Below are positions 14,208-54,402 of a stretch of 64,000 nucleotides of DNA, piece after piece. A model generated the notes under the pieces. It searched no databases, was not told the DNA's origin, and was given only the letters and a program-made list of their open reading frames with translations. The stretch spans positions 1,202,885 to 1,266,884 of the forward strand of contig NW_011887299.1 in assembly GCF_000151315.2 (NCBI RefSeq), read 5' to 3'. The translations under genes were made by a program, and so were the position numbers. Every line of letters starts with the position of its first letter. Position 1 is the first letter of the stretch. Source of the stretch: Capsaspora owczarzaki ATCC 30864 (taxonomy: Eukaryota > Opisthokonta > Filasterea).

Positions 14208-16043
14208 GAGTGTTTTGCGTGTTCACACACTGGTCCCAGCAGTCATTCGGGGCGCATTAAGCCACGTTGGCATCCGGAAGAATGACAGAAAGAGCTAGGA
14301 TTGTGCTCCATCCAGCCCAAACAGACAAAACCTGCGCTCACTCTTCTGACTTGCATTCATCCAGGTCATCCTCCTTGCCGCGGTCGGTGTGGCTGCAAAG
14401 CGATTAGGCATTCTGAACTCGGAAACATCCACCAGACTTTCAAAGCTTGTGCTCAACTTTGCCGTTCCAGCGTTGACTTTCGTCTCCATCGCTCATGCCA
14501 TCACATTTGATAACATCAAGGAGCTTTGGCCACTGCCGCTTTTTGGATTGCTCTACATTTGCCTCGGGATGGTAACGAAAGTTTGATGTTGGATTGTGAA
14601 TTGTTTGTGAAAACCTGGCTTTGACCCGACGCTCCTCGCTCTTAGGCTTTCGGATGGATTATTTGCCGCATTTGTCGGTTCCCAAAGGCCATCCGGAATC
14701 TTGTGATGGTTTGCTGCGCGTTTGGGAATTCCCAGACCATTCCGCTGGCGCTGGTGTCGTCGCTGGCGCACTCGGTGGCTCAGCTCAAGCAGAGTGATAC
14801 CGACACGCCCGCGGCTATTATCGCGCGTGGTACGTCGTACATTATGCTGTACACGCTGATTGGAACCATTCTTCGATGGTCGTTCGCCTACAAGCTGCTC
14901 AACCCGTCGCCGCAAACGCGAGCAGACGAACTCGAGCGGCAACATCGATTAACCCACCGACTGTCGGTGGACCAGATTGCCACTCTGGATGGCCACCCGA
15001 CAGTTCGCCCATCGGGCACCGAATCCGTAGCTGCCGTTCACGGGAGTGTGGACGGGAGCGATGACACGCCGGCTGTTCCCGACCGACTCAGCCCGTCGAA
15101 CAGCCGCGATCTGCTCATCCAAACGCTCGAGATACACTCAGCCGTGGGTAGCTCACAGCCATCGACTCTTCTAGCTGCTGCTGCATCTGTTCCTACGACG
15201 CCTCCTGCCTCTGTGCGTGCCAGAATTGGTTGTGCTTTCCGCCGCGTCTTGTCAACATTCACTCCTCCGGTTTGGGCCATCGTGTTGGGCTTGATTGTCG
15301 CGGTGGCTGCGCCCCTCAAGAACGCCTTCTTTCCAGCAGAAACAGCATCGAGCTCGACCCCACCGCTTGACTTTCTTGCAGATACACTCCAGACGCTGGG
15401 CAACGTTGTTGTTCCGGCAATCATGCTGATTCTCGGAGAGCAACTCTCGCGCGGGCCGTTGCAACTGACGTACATCCAATGGCATCGAATGTGGTCGTGC
15501 TGCAAAAAGCCGCACAAGCGAGCGTTTTCTCAAGGCAGCCTCAAATCGCGCATGCAAACGTGCTGGAATTCTTGCTGGAACCGCGATCGACAGCAACACA
15601 ACTCTGACAACGAACAGCTCACTCTTGTCGAGTCTTCCTCGTCATATTCAGTCATGCATGAAAAGATCGGGGGTTTGGAGTCCTCTGCCGATGTCTGCAT
15701 GCCTCCAGAGTCCGCTCAACAACAACAACAACGCAGCGTCATTACCACTCCGCTGAGTGTGGGCTCCGTCCTCGCCATCGTCATTGTCAAACTTGTCATC
15801 CTGCCCGGCATCGCCATCCCGCTGACAATGCTGTTCAACAAGATCGGACTACTCGGTAGTGATCCTGTCTTGCACTTTGTTGTGCTGTTGGAGTCGTGTG
15901 TTCCGACGGGAATCAACCTCGTTGTCATTTGCGCCTCGCACAATTGGTTGCAACGCGAGCTGACAACAGTGCTGTTCTACCAGTACCTGATAGCCATCCT
16001 TTCCATCACTTTGATGACCACTGGGTTTCTTGTCACATTGTAG
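13751..16043 (+). CDS. Auxin efflux carrier (AEC/PIN-like) family membrane transporter
   Basis: Exons are 13751-13813, 14365-14571 and 14646-16043, giving 555 residues; all junctions are GT-AG and in phase 0. The first exon is inferred: it has the only ATG in its frame, and the joined text (...ILPAIKATAK + VILLAAVGVAAKRLG) reads as the first membrane helix of the family. Exons 2 and 3 carry the family hallmarks LVLNFAVPALTF and AFGNSQTIPLALV. A long hydrophilic loop follows (about residues 150-390, Ser/Gln-rich), then a C-terminal helix bundle with ESCVPTGINLVVI. Members move small molecules across plasma or endoplasmic membranes in plants, fungi and bacteria; the substrate here is unknown. 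Intron 1 is 551 nt and contains a CT repeat. Confidence 0.8.
14173..14205. repeat. CT dinucleotide microsatellite
   Basis: About sixteen CT units inside intron 1 of the AEC transporter gene. Confidence 0.85.
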
Positions 16044-16268: not shown

Positions 16269-19200
16269 TCAAGACGACGCGGCCAAAATTTCATTGCGCT
16301 TGTTGAATGCCTCGAGGTAGAGCTCCAAGCATTGAACAATGTCAAACATCTGCACAAAGTGAAGGGGGGGGAGAGAAAAAAAAAGTGAGACAATCGTCGC
16401 AACCTTGACAAGAAAAACGGCAAACGAAACAACAACAAGAACAACAAGAAAATCGTACCTCGTCCGAGTTGACGCGCACATTGCGCGACTTGCCAGCGGC
16501 ATCCGTCACCTTCAAGTTGAGCGAAGGCGCGGCAGTCGCTCCAACGTCGCTTTGCTGCTCACGGTAGTTGGTGAGCTCCTTGAAATCGATAATTTCGAGG
16601 GAGGACTTGGACTTGGGGTCGAGGAAGGACATCTTGGACGTGCTGAGGAGAGCAATGACACCAGTGTACGTGTCGCCGTGCGAGTCTTGCAGCTTGGACA
16701 CGTTGTAGACGTTCGTTGCAATGTGCGGCCAAGCCATGACCTCTGTCAAGAAGTGCTGCATGGCGGCCTCGTGATCCATGTCTTTGATGTACTTGTTCTG
16801 AGCAAAGACGCGTGTTTCCCATTCGTCTTGCCGCATGAACGTGCGCAATTCTCGCGGAATGTACTTGCCCCATCGCCACTGGATGCCAGCTTGCAGCTTT
16901 TCATGTCCGCACACGTGCTGATGCACGTTCCAGTCCTTTTGCTGGCACTCGCGGCTGCAATACGACGCCAGCTTGCAACCGCTGCAGCGCTTGCTGGCAG
17001 GGTTGTTGCAAACGCTGCAGACGTTCGACATGAAGGCCTGCATGTCGTGGTTTTCGACGCGGTACTGCAGCGCGGCGAGTTTCGCCACTTGGTCCACATC
17101 GACCTTGTGGTGGCCCTTGAGGTATCGATCGAGAACCTGAGGTGAGCAAGCCAAGAAGGGGAAGTTGAAATGAACAAATAGCAAAGCAAATTGGTTGTGA
17201 GATTCGGCCCCATAGGAAAGAATAGTAACGCATTGCATTCAATGTCTCGCAAGTTCTCCTCTTCCTTCTTTACCTGATAATACATGATCTCAGCCAGGAA
17301 ACCACCGCGCTTCCACTCCTCGTTCGTGAGCCAGAACTTTTTGCGGAATTGCACGCCAACAGGGGCATGCCACTTGGCAGCAGCATGGTTGAGAGCGTCG
17401 AACACGTAGGCCTTGTTGTCGATCGGGATGGGCTCGACTGTCATTGGGAAAAAAAAAACACAAGAAAACAAAATGAGACACCGCGCACCGTGCACCACTG
17501 CACAGTCCTCGACAAAATCTTACTATCAGGGTTGCTCAAATTCAAAGCCCACAGGCCCCACTCGGACGGGTTGGGAATCTGGACGCGAGAGCAGACCAAT
17601 CCAACAAAGTCCTTGACGTTGACCACGTTCGTAACGTGAATGTTCTTGGTGGCGGTCGTGCCCATAAAGACCGTCTTGATTGACAAGGGGGTCTCGTGCT
17701 GTGGGAGAGAACATGTACAAGGTGAGTTTCGAGCAAACCGCATCAACCAGGCGTCAAAATCGCCTTCTCCCGAAAAAACAAAGTCCATACCTCAAGACTG
17801 TCGAGCTCGGCAGCGGATGGGCCAGTCGCGCGTTGTCCAAGACGCTTGAGTGCTATCAAGCGCTTCTCGCAAATAGCGGCAACGTCGTAGAATGGTCGCT
17901 TTTTGTCAGCAGCGCAATCACGGAGGAACTTTTTGAGATACATTTCAAACCGAGGGGAAGGCTGGAAGAAGTTCGTGCATGCCAGCATGACGACCCAACC
18001 ACGGCCACAGCTCTCTCTGCCGAACGAAGAAAGAAAAAAAAAACAAGAACAAAGACGTGAATGCAACAACATTAGAACAAGAAGCAAAACAAAACCACTA
18101 TTGTCTGTTCGCTCGTCCCCTCAATCGTTCAGACCGACGTACTGCTGCTTGCTTCGGTTGGAAATGGTCTGTTTGATGATTTGACAGTAAATTTCATCGC
18201 GCAGCGTGGGTGCGGCCAAGGCAGCGTTGATAATCGATGCGATCGGATGAACGTCGCCACGAGATCGCTTCGGCATGTCGCCCATAAAGACCATGAGATC
18301 TGCCAAGATTGAAAAACGCTACGTCAGAACAAGAAACAAAAGAGCAAGATGTGCAAATGGAACGACCCCTTACTTCGGAAGCAGTTGACAGCTTGGCGAG
18401 AATCGGCGTCGGACATTTGCTTGTGGAGCGCGGATTTGATGGGGTTCTGAAAGAGAGCGAGCAAAAACATCTCGGTAAGCCAAACCGGCGCACAAACACA
18501 ACCATGAACGCACAAATCAACACCACCACAACCAACCTCGGAAAACTTAATCTTCTCGGCAATCGAACCGATACCCCAGGTTGAAAGGCTCGGGCCGTTG
18601 CCTTTGCGAATGCGGACGGAGGGTTTTTTGAACTCGACATCGTCGCCAAAGTTCTCCTTGACGTACTCGAGCAAGTTGAACTTTTTGTCCTTGAACAGAC
18701 CTTCCAGCGACTCGGCTTCGGCTGCAGCGCGAGCAGATTCACGCTTGGCGTCTTCTTCGGCAATGATGCGCGCAGCCTCTTCGGCCGCGCTGAGCTTGGT
18801 GACTGGCGCGGTCGCCTCGGACGAGCCGGCAGAAGCAGCAGCGCTGGCGTTGGCGGCGGCCTTTGGTCCGGCAACCTCCGTTTCGGTGCGGCCCAGCACG
18901 TCTTCGAGTGGCTTGCACAGCAGAATGTGCACATACGCACGGGGCACAAAGCCCTCCTTGCCGTTGATCTCGGCCTCAATCCACTCATCGTCGTGCTCGC
19001 CGACCTCGTCGTCCTGAATCTCATCGCTCGTCTCCTCGGGAATGACAGTAATCACATCGCCCTTCTTGAGCGGCAACAGGGTTGCGTCGTTGGCGTCATA
19101 GTCAAAGAGAGCAAGACCATAGCGAGCCTCCTTGTGCAAGTCCTCCATGTAGACTCGAAGCTTTCGGTTGATGGCAGGGCCGTCGTTGCGTTCGAGCTTG

Positions 19201-22200
19201 AAGGTCAGCTGCAGGTCGCGCACAAACTGGATCGTCCACAGCGCGTCCTTTTCCTGGAGCTTGGCGCCATGCGTCTTGATGACATTGTAGTCGCGGGTGT
19301 AGAGAATCGACTTGCGATCGAGGGAGCACACGTGGAAGCCGACCGTGTCCAACGCCAACAGCACCTCATCGCCCTTCTTGAACTTGAGCGGCGGCGTGAC
19401 GTCCTGCGGGGCTTCGACCAGCGTGGCGCGGAAGGTGGAGGCAAAGTACGGTGTCTTGGCAATCGCACGATTAATGAGCAGCCACATGAGCGCCTGCTCG
19501 GTCGAGTCCTTGTACTTGGCCATGCCGTCGCGCAGCCGCGCGTCCGTCACAGACTTGTGGTGCTCGCGCGCGACGTTGGCTTGCACCCAGTCGGCGTTGA
19601 TGACCGTTTTGGCATCCCGCCTCGTCTCGACCGCCGCAACCTGCGTCATGACATCGAGAATGGCGAGCGAATCCAGGGCGATTGCTCCAGTGACGAACGC
19701 ACCGACAACCTGCGAGTAGAGAAGGCGCGTGGCGATCGGGTCGTCCAAGTGCAGCTTCTCGCTGAGCTGGTGCATGAAGCACTGCTTTTTAAAGTAGAAC
19801 ATGGGCGAGAAGGACTCGAGCTGGCCAGTCAGGAAGGCCTGCGCCTCGAACGCTGCCAACACGTCCAGAACAAAGTCATTGTCACGAATGCACAGCTCCA
19901 GAGGGCCGTTCACAAAGTAAATGGCAAAGCCGTCCGAGCGGGCCATCTTGACTGCCTTGGCGACCTTGGCACAAAGTTCATGCGTTTCCATGAGCGAGTC
20001 GACCATGACGGTGATGGACTGACCGTCCATCAAGTTGATCGGCAGTGCCACGTCCGAGCAAGTGCTGGAGGACTGCACTTCCAGGGCGCCGACCGCGTGC
20101 TTGCGGGGAGTTAGCAGCATGCAGGTCTTGTCGAGCCGAGCCTGGCAGAAAGGCTTGTAGTCGATAATGCCAAAGTCGAACGCCGCGTCAGCTTTGGCAA
20201 TGAACGCTCGCACGCACTTGGCCAGGGGCACAGACGGCGGGAAGGAGCCCAGGAAGTTGGACAGGACGTGCCACGCAGCCTTGCGGCTGTCCTCGTTGGG
20301 GTTGGCAGAAATCTGCTTGAGAACCTGGCAGTACATTTCATCACCGAGACGCGGGTAGTCCAACACGGATGCAATCATGGACTGGATGGCGCCGGTTGGC
20401 TCCAGCATGGGATGGCCGGTGGCGCCGCCAATGACTTGGTTGAGCGAATCAAACATGAGCATGGCGACACCTTCCAGGTCGTCCGACAATCGCAAAAGCG
20501 AGGACGACAGGGAGAAAGGCTGGAAGGTCGCCGTCAGTCCCTTGTTGAAATGTGCAGCTGCAAACTCCTCAAAGGTGTTGGCACCGGCGATCTGCTTGCG
20601 CAACAGGGAGCCGACTGCCGGGCCGACGGCAGGACTGACGGAATCCATCGCGGAACTGCCCAGCAAGGAGAGCATGACGCGATCCATTTCTTTGCTCGAA
20701 ATCTCGCCCTTCTGGACCAATTCGGTGGTGCGCTTGAGCTCCTTCTCGATGAGCTCGTGTTTGAAGCGGCGGTAGTCCTCGACATTCAGCTCGCCCGCGG
20801 ACTGCGACATTTCAAGCAGCGTAATGCTCTCGGCCGCTGTGAGTCGGTTCTTGGTGGCGAAAGAGCCGCTGCGTTTGAGAGTGGACGAGTTGGCAAACTG
20901 GAGGAAGGACATTGGGCGCGTGCGCTTTGCAGCGGGAGCCGGGGTGTTGGCGTCGCCGCCCGAAGCAACGATGGCTGGTGCAGCAGCAGGTGCGCTGCTC
21001 TCGGTCGTCTCGGTAGTACTCGGCGAGATTGTAACAGTGACAGTGGGAATGGGCTCTGGCGGGGGCAGACCAGCGGCTTCCGCCTCGGCAGCGGCGGCGG
21101 CAGCAGCTTCGGCAGCAGCGGCAGCGGCAGCGGCAGCAGCAGCAGCTTCGGCCTCTGCGCGAATGCGAGCTTCCTCGGCCAGCCGAAGGCGCTCCGCTTC
21201 GAGGGCGGCCGCCTTGCGTGCTGCCTCGAGCATGATAAAGTAGCGGCGTCGCATGGCACAGCCGCGTGCGCGGGCTTGCATGCGAATAACAAGACGTCGC
21301 ATCTTGACGTACGCCTTGTACATGAGGTGGCCGCGGTAGAAGACCTGGATGACCTTGATTGCGACACGGAACATGAGGAAGCGCTTGCGCGCCATGCGAG
21401 CGCGCCACCAGCTTTGCAGTCGAATCACGTTTGCCCGGAACTTGACTTCACGACGGCTCTCGAGAACCTTGTCCACGTGATCCTTGTAAAAGACTTTGGT
21501 CGAACCCATCTGTGCATTGGCGGGATTGGACGGGTCCACGCCGCACTGTTGCATGATGGAGCGAATGACGGGCGGCTCGCTGCCTGCCGCAACCTTGGTG
21601 CGGGGAGGGAGCAGCACGCGATAGCGGAACAGAAAATCTTGGAAGGGGCGACGCGCGGGATAGCCCATGCTGCGGATGCGGACGGTCTCCATCATGCCAG
21701 AGTAACGAAGCTGGTGCATGACAAGCGTCTTGTCGAATGCCGTCGGGACCTTGCTGGGATTCGGCTTGATGCAGCGCACAAAGAACGGGTTGCTCTCAAA
21801 CAGAGTTTGCATGAGGTCTGACAGGGAGTTGTGGAATTGGAATCCGACCGTCACCTTGCCCTTGTTGCCAGCGTTGCCGCCCGCGCTCTTGGCACCCTTG
21901 ACGTTCGAAACGACCGTTCCAGACGACGATGTGGAGCCTGCCGCGTCTTCGCCGAAGAAGCCAACAAAGATTTCGCGAAGGTGGCCGAGTTTGCTGGCGA
22001 GCAGCGTGTCGACCAGCGCCGGGCGCAGCGTGTCGCGGTTCTTTTCGAGGAAGCCGTCAACGCGGTAAAAGACCTCGCCGGCATAGTGGGCAATGCCAAA
22101 GGTCTCAGCGGCCTTCTTGTTCACGAGCAGGTTGGGGTCCTTTTCGTACTGCTTCTTGACCTTGGTGACGAACGTGACATCCGTGCACTGAGGGAAGCCA

Positions 22201-24194
22201 CTTTCTTCGTCGAGCAGGGACAGGATACCAATCGGCTTTTTCGAAATCAAGTCCAAAATGGGCTGGTTGTCGATAAACTCAATCTGCTTCCAATCAATGC
22301 CCTCAGACGTGTATTCCTGCTGCTCGATCTTGAAAATGTGCTGATTAAAGTACTGCTGCAGACGCTCGTTGGCGTAGTTGATGAAGAATTGCTCAAAGCG
22401 ATTGACCTGTTTTGGGAAGGAGGGAGGAGGAAGGAGGTGTCAGAGAAGGGTGGGGGAGGGGATGATGAGTCAGAATGCGAAAACAAAAAACATAAACAGC
22501 AAGAACAGCGAGGTGGGAACGGTACGAGTACCTCAAACACTTCAAAGCCGAAAATATCGAGAATGCCGACAAAACCAATGTTGGTGCCCTCCGCATGAAT
22601 GTTGCGGTTGATTTCCTTGACAATCCAGGAAAACTGACGTCCGTAGATGGCCTTCGCAAGCGCATCGCGGGTGTCTTCCGCCTGCTTCTGATCGAGAGGC
22701 GTGTAAAAGACTTCGCCGCGCGTCTCTGTTGCTTTGAAGGTCAGGCTCTTCTTGAGGGCCTCTGCATCGACTTCAAGAAGCTTCAACACCTTGTCAAAGG
22801 CTGAGGGGCAATCGTTGTTGGTGAGTGCATGAGCCCCATATGTCAAAATCCCCCTCGCACTGCAACTTCTGGAACAAAAGGCGCGGCTTGCTTACCCGCA
22901 GCATTGCTCACGGCAGCACAGCTCATGCCGCCTTGGTCCGAGGTGGAGAAATCAATGTTGCCAATCTGCAGCACGGCGGCGACGGTTTTGAAAATGTCGT
23001 GGGTGCGGTCTTTGGCAAAGTTGAGCAGCTCGAGCGCCTCGAGAAGGGTGCGATACTCTTCCTTGTCGTCGCGTCCTTGCAGACCGCCTCCATCGCCATT
23101 TCCGAGATAGCGATAGGCCGAGGTCGGCTCAAGACACCAGGCAGCCTTCTGGTCGGGAGTGGTGCCCGCAATCAGATTGTAAAAGATGTGGTAGTTGCGC
23201 TCGTTCTGTGACTGGTAAATGATGCGCGACTTTTCAAGAAGATAGTCCGACACGGTGGCGCCCTGGATGGCGCCCGTTGCACCAAACAAGACCTTGACGA
23301 ACTTGCCAAAGCGCGACGAGTTGTTGTTGCGCGCCGTTTTGGCGTTGCCGAACGCTTCGAGGATGGGATTGGCCATGAGAATCTGCTCCTCGACCAGCGA
23401 GTGCTTGCTATTCAGGTTGGCCAGGTACTGCAGAATGAATTTGGTCGACTCGGTCTTGCCAGCGCCAGATTCTCCACTGCGAAAGCAAAAAGCATTAAAA
23501 AGGTTGGAATTGGCAAATTTGCCCCATCCCCTCCCTCTCCCGGTTGTTACTGAGCTGTCGAGGACTGGAGCCAGCTGGCTTTGCTTGTCAACCCTACCTG
23601 ATGACGACGCATTGATTGCGCCCATCCTTGAACAGCGACGTATACGTCCCATCGGCGATGGCAAAAATGTGCGGTGGCAAGTCGCCGATGCGCACGCCCT
23701 TGTATCTGCGGAAGACGTCGTTGCCGTAGATCGGGATGGACTTGTACGGGTTGACGGCGACCAAGATGGAGCCAGTGTACGTCTAGTGAAAAAGCGCAGA
23801 AGAATTCAACAGTTCAGCAAAAGCAGGTCAATTGCAGATCCCGCGCTCTCGCTCCGCTGCGACGATCACAGGTACACACTCGCTCGCACTGAGCATTGCA
23901 GTGCAATCGGAGCGCGCTTCTCCCAAAACTCCCCGAAATCGCGTCATCGTCCGTTGCAGAGTGGGTTTTCGATTAAGTGGTCTTTTTTTTTTTTTTTTTG
24001 GTTTTTTAAGCGTGTTTAACTCGTTCAGTCGGGTTGCACAACCGGCACTTTGGTTCTGAAAGCGTTTGGCTGTGGTCGTTGGGCAATGCAGTGAGCACGC
24101 GGCCGGGACCCTCGGACACCCCCCCCCCCCAAACAACACCAACAAAAAGGGTCAGATTCAGAGAGATCGAATCGCAGAAACGAAACCAAAATCA

Positions 24195-24234
<40 letters not shown>

Positions 24235-24954
24235 TGTTGTGTTGTGTTGTGGTCGTTGTTGCCACTATGCGCAGTTGCGAAATCCGCGCCCCAAGGCAAG
24301 GCAAGGGGCCCCCACAGGCGTCCCCAGAAACAAAGAGGCAATTCTTGTATCGGTGTGCGATCTGGGCGAAGGCGGCAGCAGTGATGACGGTTACATAGAC
24401 GAGACTCTCTTGGAATCGAACGTGCAGGTTGTTGAGGAGCGACTCTTCCTTGTAGTCCGGCAGCTGCGTCATATCGGCCGCGCCGACGCTCTTACTGCAA
24501 AGAGACCCCAAAGGGAAGCAAATCATTGAAGCAGAGACAACAATTCACACAAGCGTGAGTCACACGGACAGGCAGAGTGAGCCAAATCACAGTCAAAAGC
24601 AACCAAGAGCCCAAAAAAAAAAAAAAAAAAAAACCACAGTTCAAAAACCCACAAAACGCGCTCTTCATTCGACGACGCTTTTCGAGTGCGCTGCGTTCAA
24701 GTGTTGCAGCTGGATTGTGACGAGAGGACTTTGTCGGAAGAAGAAGAAGAAGGTGCGGGGAATTCCGAGGTGAGGTCTGTCGTCGTCGAAGAGAAAAGTG
24801 CGGGGGAGGGTTTTTTGTGTGATTGTCGATTGTCGGCTTTTCCGATACAGCGGCGCTTGCGGTTCTCTCGCTCGACCGACCGATCGCAGGGCAACGTTGA
24901 AAGTGTACAGCAAGAAAATGGGACATTGAAAACTCACTCAAGAAGCGACGCCAT
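16269..24954 (-). CDS. Myosin VII-like motor: motor, IQ, MyTH4-FERM, SH3, MyTH4-FERM with an inserted MYND finger
   Basis: Thirteen exons on the minus strand: 24954-24938, 24494-24395, 23782-23598, 23476-22896, 22800-22532, 22406-18537, 18446-18374, 18299-18143, 18016-17791, 17698-17524, 17437-17274, 17136-16459, 16349-16269. They join in phase to 2191 residues, the usual myosin VII length. The motor (about 40-700) has the P-loop [19 protein letters not shown] and LDIFGFE. IQ motifs follow (about 700-775), then an Ala/Glu-rich stretch, MyTH4-1 (about 1005-1135), FERM-1 (about 1155-1475) and SH3 (about 1480-1545, ALFDYDA). MyTH4-2 starts near 1655 and FERM-2 runs from about 1827 to the end. 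Within FERM-2 the single exon 17136-16459 holds a complete MYND finger: Cys 1979, 1982, 1990, 1993, 1999, 2003, His 2011, Cys 2015. Such myosins work in actin protrusions. The 90-nt intron after exon 6 keeps the frame open if retained. Confidence 0.92.
24199..24233. repeat. Poly-T run of 35 nt in a myosin intron
   Basis: This lies in the long second intron of the myosin gene (611 nt), next to a GTGTT repeat and a short C run. Confidence 0.85.
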
Positions 24955-25677: not shown

Positions 25678-28600
25678 TCATTGAAGGCTGAAAGGCAACG
25701 GCAATACGGGCGTAAACGCCATCGGAGGTGGGGTTGCGAGGCTCTGAGGGGTCACAGACTCGGCTGGAGTGGCGCAGAACGAGGGAGGCGTGGACCACTT
25801 GCGTTTGCTTGCAGACACTGGTGGAGCTCCGCTGCCCAGCTGGGCCACCTCGTCATACGCATTGAATCCAGTGTTCATCAACGCCTTGTAGTCGACGGAC
25901 TTGCGGTTGCGGCGACCCTTGCCATCGGTGCTTTCCTCGGCTGGTGTGGCCGGGTCAACTGCGCTGCCGTTTGCCGGCGCGCCCCATCCATGCGTTTGAA
26001 CAAGCTTGATCTGCAGCACAAGAACAATGTCAGATTCGCACAGCCAGCAAAGCCGCAGCCAACCAACCGAAACAGACTCTGGTGGTCATACCATTTCACG
26101 ACGAGCCCGTTCCAGCGCAGTGGATTCATCGAGAATATCCTCACGCTTGACCGTCTTGCGGAAGCCGTCATCGAATATCAGGCTGTATGTGACGACGGTA
26201 TGTTGCTTGGCGCAGTTGAGCAGCTCGCGCGTCGCTTTGACGCGGCAGTTTGGTGCGCCCGTTGGCCAGACCTGCCATTCCAACAAAGAGAAGGTTGGCA
26301 AGAAGATGAGCGGATGTTAGATTGCTTTCAACAATAAGAACAGCCCCCCAATACTGACCGAATAAGCAGGATCCGAGCGCAGCGTGTCCATGTCCACAAA
26401 CTCGACATCCTCTTCACTGATGCCATTCACCAGTTGACCGTCACGGCTGCGGAAAGTGGTTGTGCCGCCAGCTGAAACACTCTCAACCACGGCCTTGTAA
26501 AAGTCGTTCGCTTGCCATCGCGCCCATACGACTTGCCCTTGGGTGAAGGCGACCGTTTGCGAAGAAGTCAACGAGGAGACCTGCATCAAGAAACAACAGC
26601 AACAAACATAGAAATCAGAACAAATTCTCATCCACAGATTCAACGCTTGCAGCTGCAGGGCAGAGACGCACCTTGTACGGATTGTGGCGCTCGCAGAAAG
26701 CCTCAAACCGCTCAGAATCAAAGGCCATGGCAATTCCGTGCCGTTGCGCGCAGGTGACATGGAAGGCGGTGCTGCACTTTCCACGCTCGCACTGGATGCA
26801 CGCACCTTTGGTCCCTCGCTTGGCAGGCAGTTGGAATCCCAGTCGCCTCGCCGCATCCGACGACGACGACGACGACGACGACGACTGACGACAGTAGGTG
26901 CATTTTAGCCCAAGCCGAGAACTTGGAACGTAGATCAAACCGCCGACCATGTCGAGCTTGGTGGGATCCAAAAAGTACATTTCCGAGACGCCAAATGCGC
27001 AAGCAACGTGGCACCAGGAGTTGTTCTCGGCAGGCTTGTAGGCGTCACCCACACAGGGGCACAGAATGCACTTTGGGTGGGAAGCACGGACCTTGCAGCG
27101 ATCGCATGCCCAATGCGCGAGGTCTGCAACATCATCAACGGTGACACCGTAGCAGTCGGCGTGAACAGTCACGTGGCAGTACTGGCAGCGGACCATGCGC
27201 ATGTCGCGAGGAACAGGAACGGCTGATGTCTCCTCCATCAGTTGCTCTTCATTGGCGGGTGGCGGGGAGGGCTCGGCGGGGTCGGAGGATGCAGGAGTGG
27301 CCTCGATGGAGGAAGCGCGGGGAGGCGCATCGCTATTGTTGGGGATTGCAGCGTGCGAGTGCTCTGCAGCGGCGACAGGAATCTCGCCATTGGAGGCAGA
27401 GGTTGCGCCGTTTGTTTGAGTGTGGATCGCATCGTGTGAAGCAGGTACTTCTTCCATCTTGACCGCAACAAGGCCATTCGTGGAGGGCGCGGCGATCGCC
27501 TCCAGGCTGGTACTCGTGCCGGGTGCTGGTGCTCGAGACAACTCGCTATTCGGGGACAGCGGCAGAATGGTTGTATCGATCATCAGCGGGGCAATGAACG
27601 TGTGCTGCAAATCCAATGGCAGGTCCAACGCCGACACATCTGTCGATTCCATGAGCCGGCCGACATCATTGCCAGACGGGTCGCCACTCTCCATGTTTGC
27701 GAGCAAATCGCCAAACATGGATGGGTGTGGAAGAGGTTGCTCGCCGCGGGGGCTTGGCTGCATGGGATTGGATGCAAAGCTGTTGTTGGTCTGAACGCTG
27801 AGGCTTTGGAAGAATGAGGGAGTCTTGCGCTGCTGCTCTGTCATCGGATTGACCTGATGCGGAGGTAGTAATTGGTGCTGTTGTTGTTGGTGTTGGAGCT
27901 GTTGTTGGTGTTGGAGCTGTTGTTGCTGCTGTTGCTGTTGTTGCTGCTGTTGTGCTTGCTGCCGTTTCTGATTTTGCTGCTGAGGTTGAGAAACGGCCTT
28001 CTGCACAAAGTTGGCATAGGGCGAGGCGGGAGCTGCACACGCTGGAACAAGGTCACCTTTGATGCGGCAGACACTGCAAATGTTCTTGCGGCAGACTTGG
28101 AAATTGTACTCGACCTCGTCGACGGAGAGCCAGCCGAAGGTTCGCGCTTGGGATTTAGGGAATGGAATGGAGGCCGTGTCATCCGTGCCCTCGCTGTCGT
28201 CGCCATCATCGTCGTCCGAGTCATCTTCGTCGTCGTCTTCTTCTTCTTCTTCTTCCTCTTCGTCGTCGCCATCGTGGTCATAAAGCCGAATGTGGTCGCC
28301 GTTGCCAAGCAAGTCCAGGGGAAGCTGAGGCGTGGACTGAACAGCCACCGCGGAGGATCCAGGCTGGACGCTGCCCAGGGCAACAGGATTGACATGATGA
28401 GAACTACGACCGCGGGAGGACTGCCAGGCTCGGTCAGGACAATCGCGCCGAATTTGCCGACGCAACTTTCGCAGCTGGCTTCTCCGGAGTGTGACTTCAG
28501 CCTCTGTCGATAACCGGCTGGGCTTTGGAAACAGGGCTACGGCGGGAGCGCCCGCGTTCAGAAAGACGCGATAGTCATCGTACGTAAAGACCTGGCCAGT

Positions 28601-28937
28601 GACGAGCACAACAGAGCTGCCAGGCTTGACCAACGGCGATATCTTTCGCCCTCGAGTGTCTCGCACGGGTCCTGCTCCTCCGACGACTCCTGCAAGCTCT
28701 CCAGATTGCGGATGGCTGAGGGCAGGTCGCTTGCGAGGCTTTTCCGAGATTGAGGCCATCGCGCGCTTTTGGGTAGGCACAGGAGCCGCAGAGTTGAAAG
28801 GGAACATCATTCCGTGCATGCCAGCAAACTGTTGTGCGGTCATATGCATACCATGCTGTTGTGGATACTGGGTAAATTGTTGAAAGTATTGCGGATACGG
28901 ATGCTGCGGAGTGGGAAACTGCTGATATTGTTGTTGT

Positions 28938-28981
<44 letters not shown>

Positions 28982-30553
28982 TTGCTGCTGATGTTGCTGC
29001 ACGGCAAGCGCCAAAGCTTCCTTCTCTCGCTTCTCTTGCAGTCTGGCCCACAATTCAGGGCGATACCGTTCGATAAAGTAGTCCATGTTAATCCGGACGG
29101 CGTCGGGAGTGCAGTTGCACAACTTTGCGTTGACCCCAAAGTCAATCCAGCGGTCGGAGGCAAAGTTGGTCGACTCGGCGCAGTTAAAGCCGTGGTTAAA
29201 CCCGGCGTGGTAGGCGTACGGAAAGGTGACCATGAACTCGCCTTCCTCGTGCACAACCGAGTGGAAGGGAATCGAAAACTTTTGCAGCACCGTCGGCGAG
29301 AGCATGGCCATTTTGTGCCGCAAAAACTGGGGGCAGGCTTTGGCGTCGTCGCCGAAAAACCCTGCAGCGAGACGCTCCAGCCGCTGGCCGTGCTTTGGTG
29401 GGATGCAATACCACGTCTTGGGCGCGCCGGCGTGAATGTAATTGATCGAGTACAAATCCATGTCCTCGACATGCCAGCCAAACGTTGCGCGCCACATCCC
29501 AATGTACATGTACGGCGTGTTGACGCCCAGAATTTCAACTCCCTGGTTTGTTTGGAGCTCGTTCAAGACCGTTTTGAGTTTGGCCACGTTCCAGGTCGTG
29601 CATGCGTCGTCAAAAAACGAGCCGGGAATGTCGGCGCCGTAGATTGGCGGGTTGATGTTGATGCCGCGCCAATACGCGCGCTCGAGCTCCTGGTGCGACT
29701 TGGAGCTCGGCGGGCAAAACCTCTTCGAGTTGGCCAGCTCGCGATAGTCGCGCAGCGAGAGTTTCGGCCGCTCGAAATTCACAAGCGTGTAGCAGCCGTT
29801 CTGGCCTCGGAATGTTTGCTTGATTGGCGTCGAAATATTGAACGCATCAAAGTCGTATGGCGTTTGTCTTGCCTTCCAGCCGGGTGGCGGGATGATCTGA
29901 GAAAATGAAAATTGTGCGAAAAGGCAAACGAGTGAGTTTGAAATCTTTTTGAGGAAATCGATACCAAAATTGAGTGTGAATGTGCCATTGACATGTTTTC
30001 TCCTCGAATGGAATCGATGGGAGATTGTTCAACAACAAGGGAGAGAAGGCAAAAACGAGTGGGCGCTGCATTGGAGGTTGAACACAATCTCCAATTCCGC
30101 CCTTGTGCCGCCCCCCCCCCCCGCCTCAGTCGCCACTCAAACCAAACGCATTCAGCGTCGTCCAGTCCACGGATGGCTGTTGAGCTTTGTGATGCGAGTG
30201 AGGCGGCCCTCGTCTGCCACTATGTCGTTCGCTGTATCAGCGAGTCCAACTTCAACCTCGACCACCTCCTCGGCCTCGTCCCACTCCCCGCCTGCGAAAT
30301 GCAACGACCCTTCTGAATGAGACTGGCTGGGGCCTCATGGACTGAGAGTGAGCAGCTCTCCAACGTTGTTATTCTGCACACCCCTGAGCGGCTGAGCCAA
30401 AAGGTCAAAACCCAGCGCGCTACCAACCTTGGCCAGGCCGATGTCAGCGGCGCCGTGCTGCTCCATGTACGCAATGTAGCCGTTAAAGTCGGCGAACTGT
30501 TCCGCGGTGGGTCGGAAGATGGGCACTCCGCCCGTTGAGTACGAGTCAGCCAT
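25678..30553 (-). CDS. KDM4-like: KDM4/JMJD2-like histone lysine demethylase (JmjN, JmjC, extended PHD, double Tudor)
   Basis: Exons on the minus strand: 30553-30428, 29896-26672, 26580-26359, 26271-26092, 26010-25678; all phase 0, 1361 residues. JmjN is split by the first intron (...GLAK + IIPPPGWK, as in animal KDM4). JmjC has the Fe(II) ligands His184 and Glu186 (WHVED) and His272 (YHAGFNHG), spaced exactly as in human KDM4A (88 residues). The Zn-site Cys and His (CPQFLRHKM, LCNC) are also present. A polyQ run of more than 20 (about 342-368) and an Asp/Glu-rich stretch follow. Then come an extended PHD (CQYCHVTVHADCYG, HPKCILCP, FHVTCAQRHG) and a hybrid Tudor pair across exons 3-5. It is expected to remove methyl groups from H3K9/H3K36 in the nucleus with 2-oxoglutarate. 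All visible catalytic residues are present. The chief difference from animal KDM4A is the long Gln-rich linker. Confidence 0.93.
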
Positions 30554-38178: not shown

Positions 38179-41100
38179 TTAAAGCACAATCCCTCGAATG
38201 CTAGCGATCTTTGTGTGGATGGACGGATCACAGCCCACAGGCTTTTCGGCTTGTAGAGATTTGAATCTGTTTGTTGCAAGAAAAAAAGGCGGTGAGCACA
38301 AGGTCAGGCGGAAAGCGACAAGATCAACTCAAAAACGTACTTTTCTGCTGGAGCGCCAAACAGTTGGCGGACGTACGCCAAGGTTGGAGTGAGTGTAACA
38401 TCCAAAGCGGAGAGCACGTTGCTTAAATAATCTGCAGCCAAAGCCATTATTGATACGACAAACCAAACGAACAAACGAACGGAACGTTAGCATGGAAAAC
38501 AAACAACGAACAATCTTTTCATCAACTTCAAAACCCTTACCAATATCGGTCGCAATTTGCCGAACATCATTGGGGGAGAGACGTGGAAGCTCCGAATAGC
38601 GCCTGGCCAGGGCATCCATGGCAACCAAAGCGACAGCCGTCAGCCATTGTTCTGCGAACGGAAGCGCTGGCGCGTCCTCGCCAGAGGGCGACGGATGGAG
38701 CTGCCTATGCTGCAACAGCGACTTGGAATATGCGTCGGGCAGTGCGCCGTGGGCAAGCGCCACAAGCAGCGGCTTGTTGTCGGGATTGACGAGCGGTTCG
38801 AGCTGGACGGGCAAGGCGAGAAAATGCTCACCGATCTGCGTAATGTAATCAAGAGGCGACAGCGAAAAGGACGGCGCGGCGTCAGTGACGAGCACGCCAG
38901 ACGGGGCGGTCGAGGAGAAGCGAACATTTCGCAGATTGACCAAGCGGCGATCGATAAAGGCAAAGATGCAATCCACTGCAAGGGCGTGCGTTCGGTTGGT
39001 CAGTGAAAGAGCCTCAGCAAGCGCGTCGCCAATCACCTGCGGATGGACAAGCAGTGCAGCAACGCTCGAATTGCTGTTTTCAGCCTGCGTCGACCGTTCC
39101 TTTTGGTTGCGAACATTTTGGACGAGCGTGGCCATCCACGACGACAGCTCCCGCTGCTGTGGTTCAGACAAGTGGCAATGAAGGGTAAAGGACACTCCGC
39201 TATCCACATCATCGGGGGTGGAAGGGACCATTTGCTGCGAAACACCCCGATTGACTGGCGGAGTCGCTACGCTGGATGCTCCAGCTCCTGCTGCAGTCAC
39301 ACTGCTGCTGCTGCTGGCGGATTGCCCGTCCTTGCTACCACCGCGCATGGCGGCTGCAGCCTCGAGCAACGCAGGAATGTGATCAAGCGCGGCAAAGACC
39401 AGGCCATCATCGAGGCCATTGAGGCGCTCAATGATATCGCCGCACACTTGCAAGACCTTGATGGCTGCTTGGAACATGCCCCACTCGTCGTCCTTGTCAA
39501 GACTCGCGGCAGCGCTCGGCGTTAGAGCCGCAGGTGACGCGCTCCGCGACTGGGCGGTCGAGCCGGGACCATTGGCGGCATGCGACGCCTGCTGCTGTGG
39601 TGTGTCCAATCGGCCAAGTGCACGGTACTGTGACACGGCGGTGGTGATTTTTGAGACCAAGGCCCCAACCAGGGTCGTGATGGCGCGACCCAGCTCTGGA
39701 ACGCCGCTGCCAGAGGTGAGCTCGACGCAGCGAGTCACCGCCTGCTCTGCAAGCACAAACACGCGTGGAATGGCATCGCCAAGGTGACGAATGTGGTCGT
39801 GGCACGTTGCCAGTGTTGGCGGGTCAAACTTGACAATGGAATTGAGACATGCAAGCAGATACTGTCGCTCCAGGGCAATCGCTTCGTCCCGGAGCTTGTC
39901 GAAAGGGGTCAGCAGTAATCGAGAAATTTCGCGCTGTTTTTCGGGACGCAAAAGACGCGCAGGTGCGCATCGAGCAGCTGCGTTGTCTCCTCCGATAATA
40001 GACGTTGAATTGTCTGCGTCCACGGTAGAGGAGATCGATGGCGACAAAACAGGAGTTGACAAGGACGCGCTTCCCGCCAAGCGATGCGAAACCAGCTGGT
40101 CGGGGTTGCTGTGAAGCGTATGCAGTCCAGTCGAGATGGCGCTATTGAAGGCTGCAGCAAGATCGGTGGCGGTGGTGTGCGCAGCTCGCAACAGGATGAG
40201 CAAATCAATGACGGGTGACTGGGCGGGCAGGGCAGAGCCCGATGCAAGCTGCTGGGCTTGGGGAAGCGCTGCCGTCAGTGACGGGTAGGTCAAGCCCGAG
40301 AGCGAGGCAACCACAAGTGCCGTGACAAAGGCAATGGCGCGATCCAACGGGAAGACCTGAACGCACCAGCCCAGCTCGGTTTTGATGACCGAGTACAGCT
40401 CGTCCAGGAACAGCGGGTACCACTCGGTCATGGGAGTCGCAGCGCCTGCCTGTGCACCGCCCTGGCCTGGTGCCGTTGCTGCCGGTTTCCAAAAGCGATG
40501 CACGGATGCGGCGTGGCAGCGCGCATAGTACGACTCGAATTGCGCGACGCGGCCCATCTGCTCAAAGCAGTCGAGGTACAGCTTGGTTTCAGCCTCGTCG
40601 TGTGAGTTGAGGGCTTGGAATAGACGCGGCGCAATTCGGGCTTCAAACCGATCTTCGCAGGAGCGCATGAGCGCACGCTTGCCGTCAAGTTCTGCCTTTT
40701 GCGCGGCATCCTGCTTTTCTGCTGCTGCCGCCGCGGGCTTGGACGGGGTCGCCGCCGAGGAGCCGGCGGTTGCTCCACTCGCCGTCTGCCACGACTTGTC
40801 AGCACCCATGGACGACAGACACAGCCGCATCTCGTGCAGGTGCTGCCGGACGGCCGCAACGTCGCCAGAAGTGAGCATTGTGTCGACCTCGGCGGCGAGC
40901 GTTGCCCAGGTGCCCGCCTGCCTCAAGCTGACTGTCGCAGCCTCCATGCGATCCCGCACAGCATCGACCTCCAGGAGCACCTTCATGGAGGCGTAGGTGC
41001 CAGACTCGACGGCCTGCAGATCGCTTGCGACCGTGCCCATCCGCTCCCTCAGCGCAATCGCCTCCACCCGGATGGTGTCAATATCGCGCAGTGTCCTTGG

Positions 41101-41344
41101 CATTGCTTGAATGACGCGCTGGCCGGCGTCCTCGAGCGACGCGCTCACGTCCTGCATCAGCAGCTGCAGCTTGACGACGAGCGCCGACGCCGTCTGGCTG
41201 ATCTCTGTGTTCCCCCCAACCACCAAGGCCCCAAAATACAAGTCCAGCAATGTGTACAAAGTGGTGCTTGTGAGCAAGATTGAAATGATGGCAGAACGCA
41301 CGACAACAAGAGAGTGAGTGCGTTACCATTGCCATCGTCCGTTA

Positions 41345-43401: not shown

Positions 43402-46185
43402 TTTTTTTTTTGTATTACGTTTATTGGAGAGTGGAAAAAGCTTCTAAGGCTCAAAAACCACAAAGAGGAGGATCATGATCAGGGGCATGGAGTAAGTGAC
43501 AAGGGCAACGTGTTTAACTTATTCTTGCGGTTGCAAGTTTGGTGTTAGCGTCCTGGTCATACGGGCGCCGCTTGGTGACTCGGTTTGCTCATGCTCACCG
43601 GGTTTCGGGGGTAGAAGTGAAATGGTGGTCTTCTCTTCTGACCTGACAATGCACTTTCCCCACATCTTCGACGTGGGAGAGTCAGCAGGCGGGGCTCGCG
43701 GCACAATGTCCTGCAGGGCGCGGGAGTGGACGAGTTTGATGAAGGTGGTGTGGCTGGGTGTGAATGTGTTGTTGATTTTTGCTTCGCAGCGGGTGCGCCA
43801 GATTGCCCAGCGTCCGAGGTGGTACAGGGTCGTGGCAAGCGCTCGCATTTCCTTTTTTCGCGCAAGCGTGGTGGGGAAGGGACCGAACAGGAGGGCTTTG
43901 TCGAACATTGGGAGGGAACTTGAGTGAGCGTGCTGGAAGATGGCGTTCGCGGTTTCCCAAACCGCTTGGGCTGTGTGGCAGCGGACAAGGATGTGGTGCC
44001 AGGTTTCTTTGGCCGAGCGGCCGTCGTGTTTGCAGTGCGCGCAGTCGTAGCGCCCGGTGGCAATTCTGTCGTCGTACTCTTCGCGGGAGAGCGAGCCGGC
44101 GCGCAGCGCTTGACCATCTGTTTCGAGCCAGTCGGCGCCCAGTCGGTTGGTGCGGTGTGCAATGCGCCAGAGCAGGGAGGCTTGCTTGGATGTGACTAGA
44201 CTGGTTCTGATGGAGTTGGCCAGTGATTCGAAGGGCACGTAGCCAACTTTGTTGATCCACCATTGGAGGGCGTCTGGTCTCGAGGGACGTGGAGTGAGCA
44301 GCTGCCTTAGCGTTTTCAGTTTGAGCTTGTGCGATGTGACTTGCAGGGGCTTCTGGACGCTTGAGTGAACACCGTTGAGGACGATGTTGCTCCAGATGAG
44401 GGGCATGAGTTGAGTGCGGCCAACATGGTACAGTTGCTTTCGTGGGAGGAAAATCTTTCCCCGCTTGTTTGGTTCAGGCTTGGTGTTGGGAGCTCGCCAG
44501 TAGACGACGGTGGCGTGTTGCGCGGTTGCCAGGCGGAACTTGGTGAGGACTAGGCCTGGCTGGGCAGGCGCGATCAGGGCGTTCTCCGACTCGTAGAACA
44601 CTTGGCCGGCTCCGAGTGAGCTGCTTGTGAGCGGGCTGCCCGTGCGGAGCTTGACAACTCTGAAGAGTTTGGGATTGGCGTCGTCGTCGTCGGCTGGTTG
44701 GGCCCAGCACCACGGTAGATCTTGCACTGACGGGATTGTGGCGCTATCCTGCTCTACGAGCGACGAGAGCTGGCTCCGGTCGAGTGCCTCGTGGAGCTTG
44801 TTGTAGTATTTTGCGTTGGTGAAGCTTTGGACGAGCGAGAGCGGGGACCACTCTTCTCTAGCTGGGTTACCGATGAAGCGGCGCAGGTCGCGGACGCGCA
44901 TGTATCCGTTGAGGATCCAGCTCGGCCACCAGAGCGGCTTGCCGTCGTCCTGGATGTCCGGTGAGTCCCAGAGCGGGTGAGCGAGCGCCTCGTCGCGGCA
45001 GGCAGGGGTTTGGAGCTCTGGCCTGAGCTCGTGCCATGCCTCAAAGGCTTTGTGCCAGAATGCAGAGATGCCAATAAAGTCTGACGAGGCCTTGATCACC
45101 AGCCTGAGCACGTTGAGTGGGCATGCTGGCTTGTCTGCCGCACGCCAGAGGCGGACAGCAATGTGCTTCCATGGGGCAGCATACGGCTGACACCATGCCA
45201 GGGCGGCTTGGGCGAGGAGGGCTTTGAGGTGACGCCGAACGGGGATGAGTCCGAGTCCGCATGCCACGGATTTGATTGGTGCTGCGACGTTGGCCTGGTG
45301 AGTTCGCGACCATTTGCTTGGGTGCCAGAGGAACTTGTCGATGATGCGGGTGAGTTTTGCTGTCTGCTCGGACGAGAGGGGCACAAACCTCGCTCGGTAC
45401 CAGACTTTGGACAGCGCGATGGTGTTGGCGATGAGCACACGACCTGGGAGTGACGGCCCGTGAACGAGCCATCTCGACAACTGGCCGTGCAGCTTGTCGA
45501 GTAGGTCGCCAAAGTTTGCGACGGTCAGATCACCGTGGCCGAGCATGACGCCGAGGTAGCGCGTCGTAGAGTTTGGTCCAACCCACTCGAGGCCTTCCAG
45601 GTCGGGGGGAGGCTTGCGCGTTGCAGTTGGTCCGAGCGGGATGATGGTGGTCTTTGGTGCATTGATTTCCAGATTTGTGGCCGTCCCCACAAACTTGAGC
45701 TCGTTCAGCAGGTTTGGGACGTCTGCTGGTGAGGCGAGAAAGTAGGACGAGTCGTCCGCGAAGAGGGTGGGGAGAATGACAAGATCGTCTGGCCGGTCCT
45801 CATTCGCTCGGCCACGCTTGCGATCGGCTTTGAGGTTGCTGCTGGGGATCCGCAACAACTTGAGCTTTGTGCCGTAGGTGATGTAGTCTACGATGGCGCA
45901 GGCGTAGAACGCGAAGAGTGTCGGCGAGTCGCAGCCTCCCTGGCGCACCGACCTTTGGATTGGAAAGTGATCCGAGACCCGGCCTTGGTACACCATCGCG
46001 GAGCGGCCATTGGTGTTGTAGAGTTTGATCATGTTGATGTAGCCTGGCCCGACTCCGTACGCTCTGAGTGCAGCATACAGGAAGTCGTGTGAGACCTTGT
46101 CGAACGCCTTGGACGCGTCTGTCATGGCAATCACTCCAGGGGTTTTGATGGTGTTGCACAGATCTATCACATCACGGGTGAGATG
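43402..46185 (-). mobile_element. 5'-truncated LINE (non-LTR retrotransposon)
   Basis: The element runs on the minus strand from 46185 to a poly-A tail (T run from 43401 on the plus strand). It is bracketed by a perfect 10-bp duplication. The 5' end is cut inside the reverse transcriptase, as is common for target-primed insertion. It sits between GORAB and PICH and interrupts no gene seen here. Confidence 0.88.
43519..46185 (-). CDS. LINE ORF2 fragment: reverse transcriptase C-terminal part and zf-RVT domain
   Basis: An uninterrupted frame of about 885 codons, entering at the truncated 5' end and stopping at 43519. The reverse transcriptase shows MTDASKAFDKV (motif A region), RQGGCDSPTLF (motif B) and TLFADDSSYFL (catalytic DD, motif C). 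A long thumb/connection region follows. The C-terminal zf-RVT domain has the Cys/His cluster YDCAHCKHDGRSAKETWHH. The endonuclease and the N-terminal fingers of the reverse transcriptase are absent, so the copy cannot move by itself. The frame has no stop along 2.6 kb, so the insertion is probably young. The domain order fits the L1/Tx1-like group; clade placement would need a tree. Confidence 0.9.
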   Translation of the reverse strand, partial: HLTRDVIDLCNTIKTPGVIAMTDASKAFDKVSHDFLYAALRAYGVGPGYINMIKLYNTNGRSAMVYQGRVSDHFPIQRSVRQGGCDSPTLFAFYACAIVDYITYGTKLKLLRIPSSNLKADRKRGRANEDRPDDLVILPTLFADDSSYFLASPADVPNLLNELKFVGTATNLEINAPKTTIIPLGPTATRKPPPDLEGLEWVGPNSTTRYLGVMLGHGDLTVANFGDLLDKLHGQLSRWLVHGPSLPGRVLIANTIALSKVWYRARFVPLSSEQTAKLTRIIDKFLWHPSKWSRTHQANVAAPIKSVACGLGLIPVRRHLKALLAQAALAWCQPYAAPWKHIAVRLWRAADKPACPLNVLRLVIKASSDFIGISAFWHKAFEAWHELRPELQTPACRDEALAHPLWDSPDIQDDGKPLWWPSWILNGYMRVRDLRRFIGNPAREEWSPLSLVQSFTNAKYYNKLHEALDRSQLSSLVEQDSATIPSVQDLPWCWAQPADDDDANPKLFRVVKLRTGSPLTSSSLGAGQVFYESENALIAPAQPGLVLTKFRLATAQHATVVYWRAPNTKPEPNKRGKIFLPRKQLYHVGRTQLMPLIWSNIVLNGVHSSVQKPLQVTSHKLKLKTLRQLLTPRPSRPDALQWWINKVGYVPFESLANSIRTSLVTSKQASLLWRIAHRTNRLGADWLETDGQALRAGSLSREEYDDRIATGRYDCAHCKHDGRSAKETWHHILVRCHTAQAVWETANAIFQHAHSSSLPMFDKALLFGPFPTTLARKKEMRALATTLYHLGRWAIWRTRCEAKINNTFTPSHTTFIKLVHSRALQDIVPRAPPADSPTSKMWGKCIVRSEEKTTISLLPPKPGEHEQTESPSGARMTRTLTPNLQPQE

Positions 46186-46195
46186 ATCACAAAAT
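46186..46195. repeat. Target-site duplication, right copy
   Basis: ATCACAAAAT at the truncated 5' end of the LINE, identical to 43392-43401. Confidence 0.75.
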
Positions 46196-46774
46196 CTCTG
46201 ATCAATCTCAATCGTTTTTGCTCAATCGCTGCTCCACTGCACAGCATACGCTTCGAGATCGTTCATTGGATCTCGCAGTTTCAAGCCTCTGCCAATGCGC
46301 TGTCAACCAATCCGGCGAGCTGGGATTGTCACGATCGTCAAAATCTTTCAATTCGCTTGATTCGCTTCTTGATCCACCCTTCTGTTCACCTTGCACGCAG
46401 CGTACGCTTCGAGATCTCGCACTCTCAAGCCCCCTACCAACCGAGTCGTGGACCAATCCAGTTCTTCGCAGGAACAGGTTTTGCACGGGGGAAGTGAGTG
46501 AGTTGGATCGTGAAACCGGTTTTCTTTTCCAAATGCAAAAAAACTGACGTGAGTGAACTTTTGCCGCGTTTAAAAGGCGGTTTTTGCCTGAGTTTCAAAA
46601 CGCTCAGTCTTTTTCACGCTCTTTCGCTCTCTTTCGCTCTCTCTTTCGCTCTGATCGTTCTACTCTTTGCCTGTCTACCGCAAAAGGCGAGATCACGAAA
46701 TCCAAACTACTCAAAGAAAGTCATCTGCGACTCTCACCTTGCGTATTGGAAACAAAAAACAAAAACAAGAAGTC
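46196..46774. other. 5' flank of the PICH gene with an imperfect direct repeat
   Basis: A diverged repeat of about 75 nt occurs near 46240-46318 and 46396-46470 (shared TACGCTTCGAGAT, CTCAAGCC-type blocks and ACCAATCC). Repeated CTTTCGCTCT units lie near 46615-46655. No coding signal beyond short frames. Confidence 0.5.
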
Positions 46775-52345: not shown

Positions 52346-53568
52346 TCACTCGTCGTTTTTGCCAATAGCCACATTCGAAAACACGGTTCGACCCATGTCG
52401 CGGATGTGATGCATGGCGCTGGAGATGGCAAAGACATGATGCAACGCGGCAAAGTCTGGGCGCTCCTCGGGAATGTCACGCCAGCACTGATACACAATGT
52501 TGGCAATCACTTCTGGGCATTCGGCGGGCAGCACCAAGCGCTTGCCTCGCTCCAACTCAGCGAGAACCTCGGGACCGCGTTTCTGTCCGTATGGAACAAG
52601 GCCGTAGGTGTACACCTCCCCTGAAAACAACAAGAAATCGATCAAGCAAGAGGAACGAACTTGTCGTGAGCAAACGTCAACCGAAATGCACGCAGTTGCA
52701 ACGCATCCCTTACAGGCAACGACACCAAAGGCCCAAACGTCAGACATGGTGGTGAACTTTCGATACCGAAGTGCTTCAATGGCCAGCCACTAATCATCAC
52801 CAGCGAAAGCAGGACGAGTTAAGAAAAAGGTGCTTTTTTGTTTTTTCCTCTCATCCGACTTTTCGTCTCATCCGACAACAAGTCTCCATTCAACAATTAG
52901 CTTACTTTAACAGGCAATCGACCTTTCGTTTCGTTGCGGTGGTAGTTCTTTTCGTCCAAGAGTTCGCGCGACAGCCCAAAGTCGGAGAGTTTGACTTGCA
53001 GGTTGGGACCAACCAGACAGTTCCGTGCGGCTAGATCGCAGTGCAGGAATCGAATTGACCCGAGATACTCCATGGCCGACGCGATCTGCGCCAGGACGTG
53101 CGAGAACTCGGTGACAGTCCACGGGATGCGTGCACGCCGCGACTTCACGAGAACGCTGCGCAAATCGCCGTACGCGATGAATTCGAGGACAATTTGGAAT
53201 GGTCGCTCCTCCAGCAAGCCAGCCACCATAAGCACAATGTTTGGGTGGCGGAACTGGGCCATCATGTTGGCCTCCTCGATGAAATCGTTGCGCGTGGTGG
53301 CCTCGCCGTCGTTTTTCAGCAGTTTGATTGCGACTGGCAATCGGTCGTCGGTCGGCTTCAGCAAGTGTCGCGCGTGCTCTGGCACTGCCATCCGTTTGAT
53401 AAATGCCTTTTGCACAATGCCAAACGAGCCTTGACCGAGCGTCGCGTCGAGCTCAATGGCACGTCGCAGCGTCTGAGCCTCGCCGTCGATCAATCCTGCT
53501 CCGGCCAGGAAAACGGGCACGGGAAGTGCAGTTGCTGCATCTGTGCTCTTGGAATTACTACCAGCAGT

Positions 53569-53599
<31 letters not shown>

Positions 53600-54123: not shown

Positions 54124-54402
54124 GTCTGTGTGTCGTCGCAAGTGAGGGTGCTGTGTTGTTCGTCTGGATTGGGTGGACGAGGAGGGGGAATATGCGTGTG
54201 CTGCAGGAAAACAAAGAAGGAAAGAAGAATGACTGAGTTTGTCCATTCAACATGTCGAAGATGGCTGATCCACTGTAAGATCGAACATGTCATAAGTGTA
54301 TGAGAGTGCAGGATGAGACTGCAGGGATCACTGCAATCCGGCTTGTCAAAGTAGCGCTGAAATGCAAAACGCCAGTCTCTCATTTTCTCAGAAATTCATT
54401 GG
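54124..54402. promoter_or_regulatory. Divergent promoter region, tyrosine kinase / CcmH-like gene
   Basis: 279 nt separate the two divergent starts; part is probably 5' UTR and intron of the kinase gene. Confidence 0.4.

Follow-up and report, generated by a model that had tools for sequence, protein, structure and literature searches.

A MYND zinc finger inserted in the C-terminal FERM domain of a MyTH4-FERM myosin from Capsaspora owczarzaki

FERM tails of myosins select cargo, and they also hold the motor off in the myosin VII of Dictyostelium and the fly, with charged FERM residues keeping the motor off in Dictyostelium Myo7 (described in the available part of PMC8352590). A locus of Capsaspora owczarzaki raises the question of whether such a regulatory FERM domain can itself house another complete domain, and of what this would mean for the motor. 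In the window (the whole 64,000-nucleotide stretch of DNA that was analysed), an initial annotation had proposed that one exon of a myosin VII-like gene encodes a MYND zinc finger within the second FERM domain.

We placed the exons of this gene by hand from genomic sequence alone, which gave a MyTH4-FERM myosin gene of 13 exons and 2,191 residues on the reverse strand (16269..24954). Exons 1 to 7 lie at 24954-24938, 24494-24395, 23782-23598, 23476-22896, 22800-22532, 22406-18537 and 18446-18374, and exons 8 to 13 at 18299-18143, 18016-17791, 17698-17524, 17437-17274, 17136-16459 and 16349-16269. All 12 introns (74-612 bases) are GT-AG with phases that agree, and there are no internal stops; the first exon (17 bases) and the start codon were inferred. 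Using Pfam we detected, on the same strand, a myosin motor domain (residues 12-692; 21483..24478; Myosin_head, 780.6 bits), an IQ-like motif (residues 709-727; 21378..21434; IQ, 16.3 bits and so under the cut-off of 20.3), a first MyTH4 domain (20073..20387; 79 bits), the F1-like lobe of a first FERM domain (19779..20045; RA_2, 65.8 bits), an SH3 domain (residues 1480-1545; 18924..19121; SH3_2, 51.4 bits) and a second MyTH4 domain that spans an intron (residues 1719-1823; 17800..18240; two stretches, 182.5 bits in total). For the first FERM domain, the stretch presumed to form F2 and F3, which carries no MYND finger, was placed by position (19125..19751). Last comes the F2 lobe of the second FERM domain (residues 1925-2083; 16705..17318; FERM_M), which spans an intron, is split by the finger and was put at the identical location by a genome-wide FERM_M search. 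Ahead of the motor (24954-24395), the N-terminal SH3-like myosin subdomain was not found in the gene model. The model start aligns with residue 103 of the solved MYO7A chain, which indicates that this subdomain is either missing from the model or absent, through a missed upstream exon or a true loss, respectively.

Other genes lie in the window as well. A membrane transport protein gene on the forward strand (14649-16040; Mem_trans, 124.5 bits), belonging to what we take to be the family of auxin-efflux-type carriers, ends ~230 bases from the myosin stop codon in a tail to tail arrangement. Upstream of the myosin and on the same strand is a gene encoding JmjC, PHD and extended-PHD fingers (26618-30028), presumably a KDM4-type demethylase. 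Also on the reverse strand are COG7, a subunit of a Golgi tethering complex (38332-41322; 292.5 bits), a retroelement with a 900-residue open frame (43522-46221; RVT_1 reverse transcriptase, 44.3 bits), and a PK_Tyr_Ser-Thr family kinase domain (52900-54246; 148 bits).

Exon 12 (16459..17136, reverse strand) is open from acceptor to donor over 226 codons in phase 0 and encodes part of F2, the finger, the remaining F2 and most of F3; the limits given in the initial annotation for the unusual segment proved to be the boundaries of this exon. Within its 225 complete residues Pfam returned one FERM_M match (71.8 bits, E 7.3e-20, residues 2-144; curated cut-off 23.8 bits) and, nested inside it in the same frame, a zf-MYND match (44.6 bits, E 1.5e-11, residues 40-76; curated cut-off 22.7 bits), which upholds the proposal of a complete finger within the C-terminal F2 lobe and in a single exon. 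A domain search of the joined protein had been suggested as a check, and here both domains again scored above their cut-offs (zf-MYND 41.1 bits, FERM_M 84.6 bits). An NCBIfam search gave no match. The finger itself (16909..17019; residues 1979-2015), identified by Pfam and by pattern, has 37 residues and all eight zinc ligands, seven Cys and one His, in exactly the proposed spacing of Cx2C-x7-Cx2C-x5-Cx3C-x7-Hx3C, and a relaxed version of this pattern occurred once across the six frames of the window. An AlphaFold2 prediction of exon 12, made from its alignment to the gene's first FERM domain (2 rows, 281 columns), had a mean pLDDT of 37.2, with no residue reaching 70. We consider it virtually certain that the MYND finger is a real in-frame insertion in the myosin tail and very likely that the inserted segment is a folded MYND finger.

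Animal myosin VII was said to run uninterrupted through this point, and comparison with solved chains agreed. Human MYO7A (5mv9_A; overall E 1.1e-26) and MYO7B (5xbf_A; overall E 2.9e-25) both aligned on either side of the finger and skipped it, with the MYO7A chain passing from residue 367 to 375 where the query passes from 279 to 333 (7 versus 53 residues), and with a linker of 6 residues in MYO7B versus 52 in the Capsaspora protein. On its own, the block that follows the finger scores weakly (MYO7A 13.8 bits, i-Evalue 0.16; MYO7B i-Evalue 0.15) and was accepted because it is collinear with the block before the finger. Likewise, when eight F2 stretches were aligned with MAFFT, a finger was present only in the second FERM domain of the window, and an XV-like Capsaspora paralogue (L012) showed a short linker without one. 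An exon by exon profile search of the genome (27,456,641 bases, 29 contigs), in which counts are lower bounds, gave at least 20 FERM_M and at least 14 MYND matches, and among the matches listed these overlapped only in the window's pair. We take this genome to be that of Capsaspora owczarzaki from published sequences: a 24-residue CoSrc2 peptide (PMC6001378) matched at 24 of 24 residues, an actin promoter primer sequence (PMC9170242) gave a single exact match, and both GAPDH qPCR primers of PMC9170242 matched exactly, in convergent orientation ~530 bases apart. By contrast, a 90-base coYki arm and one coYki primer of PMC9170242 gave no match, although a DNA search of this kind is uninformative when empty unless a positive control accompanies it, and withheld stretches are read as N. 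Relatives of the exon were sought in a bacterial and archaeal genome collection (22 pattern matches, none confirmed) and in a viral contig collection (five pattern matches, none confirmed), both of which are without protist genomes by design, and the insertion is at present known from one species. Elsewhere in the genome, on contig C15 (836296-837498), MyTH4 and FERM_M occur together in one 941-residue frame, and the closest myosin-head match listed for C15 is >270 kb away; among the matches listed, this locus is a MyTH4-FERM protein without a myosin motor nearby.

The difference in linker length also bears on whether the finger could be an optional in-frame cassette, with some transcripts encoding an ordinary uninterrupted FERM domain. 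Flanking the finger are six in-frame GT...AG pairs; removal of 17022-16879 (144 bases, within the size range of the gene's introns) would leave a linker near the MYO7A length. However, all six pairs have GTC donors, a form used by none of the 12 donors in the gene, and chance would be expected to yield such pairs given the dozens of boundary choices, so that we regard alternative splicing of the finger as improbable.

That no myosin with this layout had been described, as the initial annotation supposed, did not hold in full, since a 2014 list of myosin domains includes zf-MYND as filasterean-specific and found together with the myosin head (PMC3942036). The accessible part of that paper gives the Pfam name alone, and not the place in the protein, class or function. 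The listing concerns the same lineage and the same domain pair, and although it could mean Ministeria it very probably refers to the window gene, because among the matches listed no MYND other than the window's lies within 20 kb of any listed myosin-head match. MYND was absent from the text of PMC5583752 and PMC2375034, and searches of the open-licence literature for the pairing yielded no other paper with myosins as its subject, judged by title. The MYND-myosin pairing is thus already in print, and a description of the finger's place was not found in the open-licence literature. This earlier report, made independently from earlier data, also counts against an artefact, be it an assembly join, a pseudogene or two genes fused by frame. 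Such an origin might be entertained for a gene model built by hand, but FERM_M is continuous on both sides of the finger in one frame and one exon and every intron is canonical, which makes it exceedingly improbable.

We also assessed which class of myosin carries the insertion. In domain order the description as 'myosin VII-like' was borne out, with motor, MyTH4, FERM, SH3, MyTH4 and FERM in the order common to MYO7A and MYO7B. These are also the best solved matches, MYO7A for the motor (645 bits, compared with 610 for XV, 599 for X and 596 for Va) and both for the second MyTH4-FERM unit. Class VII tails, as set out in the available text of PMC3942036, comprise two each of MyTH4 and FERM domains and a single SH3. 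In the window gene we found two MyTH4 domains, the SH3 and the second FERM, whereas Pfam gave no FERM_M match in the first FERM domain, of which the F1-like lobe alone was detected. Membership of class VII, on the other hand, was not established. The motor was 47.4% identical to MYO7A over 665 columns, 50.8% to an XV-like Capsaspora motor (L023) over 666 columns and 54.3% to an X-like one (L051) over 536 columns. A tree was built from 15 motors, comprising 11 of the 30 fetched myosin loci (L022-L051), the window motor and three solved-structure motors; the remaining 19 loci, which were fragments, divergent motors, overlapping copies and the window's own copies, were left out. The window motor stood alone near the base, unplaced, while L032 and L051 grouped with MYO10 (100/100), L023 with MYO15 (96.7/96), and L026 and L028 formed a pair (100/100). 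By contig, the Capsaspora motors of the MYO10 group lie on C3 (L032) and C13 (L046/L051) and that of the MYO15 group on C1 (L023). When the window motor was constrained to VII, XV, X or L026+L028, the AU p-values were 0.091, 0.155, 0.505 and 0.067, respectively, so that none of the four placements is rejected at 0.05, although bp-RELL and c-ELW exclude VII and L026+L028. With a single class VII motor and without class XXII or XXV references in the tree, placement is weak either way.

According to the portion of PMC3942036 at hand, class VII is limited to metazoans, choanoflagellates and Corallochytrium, with none in filastereans, and class XXII has an RA domain (PF00788) between the first MyTH4 and the first FERM. 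This RA domain gave no match at E 0.1 in the window gene model, where an SH3 is present. The tail stretch of the L026 gene has RA (PF00788) before its first FERM, and the RA of the C2 paralogue scored 57.9 bits; this layout is that of class XXII, which indicates that class XXII is filled by other Capsaspora genes. The window myosin differs from MYO7A and MYO7B in the finger within F2, in having no N-terminal subdomain that could be found in the gene model and in the lack of tree support for class VII. Its layout is VII-like and its descent unclassified, with its class not established.

Whole domains that interrupt F2 have a precedent in the kindlins, where, in the text available from PMC7373317, a PH domain bisects F2 between helices 2 and 3, an insertion also described in PMC5290484. 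In our alignment the MYND finger is placed after a helix ending ALQYRVEN and before one starting IPREL, which would be F2 helices 2 and 3 and would put the finger in the loop between them, at a junction matching that of the kindlins; the helix matching combines alignment and inference. Kindlins differ in that the inserted domain is PH rather than MYND and in having no motor. MYND likewise breaks another folded domain in the Smyd methyltransferases, where it interrupts SET (as given in part of PMC4521844), and zf-MYND~SET tops a table of re-emerging domain combinations with 32 reappearances (in the section seen of PMC3499355), although there the host is SET and not FERM.

To characterise the finger we compared it with MYND fingers of solved structure. 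The best matches were ETO/CBFA2T1 (2odd_A; 44.7 bits), an ETO2 fusion (39.6 bits) and DEAF-1 (4a24_A; 38.6 bits), with the SmyD and ZMYND10/12 fingers ranking behind, and over 37 positions the finger has 19 identities with ETO and 18 with DEAF-1. The finger is thus close in sequence to peptide-binding MYND fingers. Fingers of the ETO/DEAF-1 type are defined by the binding of a PPPLI or PxLxP-like peptide. For DEAF-1 the available text of PMC3555993 names M512, E514, T516, Q529 and W533 as ligand-contact residues, and at these five aligned positions the Capsaspora finger has S, R, S, Q and W where ETO has S, T, S, Q and W. Four of the five are therefore as in ETO, and two are identical to DEAF-1 with a further Thr to Ser change, Met512 being replaced by Ser and Glu514 by Arg. 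Retention of the groove Gln and Trp, with Arg at the Glu/Thr position, makes peptide binding plausible and suggests that the ligand may differ. In its own protein PPPL, PPxL and PxLI are absent, and the one PxLxP (residues 1050-1054, just ahead of the first MyTH4 match) is at about the chance rate and does not point to an internal ligand.

These comparisons leave differing roles for the finger. ETO and DEAF-1 are transcription regulators whose free-standing fingers bind SMRT/NCoR (PMC3555993, in the part available), and with these as the nearest solved sequences the finger might connect the myosin to a corepressor-type protein in the nucleus. However, MYND fingers are common in cytoplasmic contexts and the remaining protein has a cytoskeletal tail, so that a nuclear or transcriptional role is unlikely. 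A structural role deserves more weight; the finger would then bind no peptide and would instead stabilise F2 or provide a contact for dimers or oligomers. In kindlins, the PH domain inserted at this F2 junction is reportedly important for oligomerisation (PMC7373317, as far as its available text goes) and two of the five contact positions differ in kind from DEAF-1, but the retained Gln and Trp and the greater closeness to peptide-binding fingers than to other solved MYND fingers speak against it, and we hold it possible but doubtful.

The reading we favour, at roughly even odds, is that of a MyTH4-FERM myosin to which the inserted MYND finger may have added a peptide-docking module. The finger would fold independently around two zinc ions and F2 would close around it, by analogy with kindlin F2 around its PH domain, leaving the finger as an extra pocket in the tail into which a partner's short proline/hydrophobic peptide would fit. 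Once bound, this peptide might recruit the motor to the partner or help to keep it open and active, for example at filopodia. That the finger docks a short peptide has about an equal chance of being right or wrong, and a part in motor activation or cargo choice is a more tentative proposal, beside which the finger may simply stabilise F2. More speculative still is the idea that the regulatory FERM lobe of a MyTH4-FERM motor gained a receptor for peptides, in the F2 junction where kindlins independently took up PH, and that the motor is switched or anchored by a short peptide belonging to a cortical or filopodial partner.

As known from sequence, the layout is a well-defined domain oddity. Capsaspora can be transfected and gene-edited (PMC6001378 and PMC9170242, in the parts available), and an insertion point in common with kindlins makes it testable which FERM loops can accept new domains. 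If the finger does bind a peptide, it would give a single-celled relative of animals a compact new control over a filopodial-type motor. If the wider proposal is true, the loop between F2 helices 2 and 3 would be a general insertion port through which FERM proteins may acquire new ligands.
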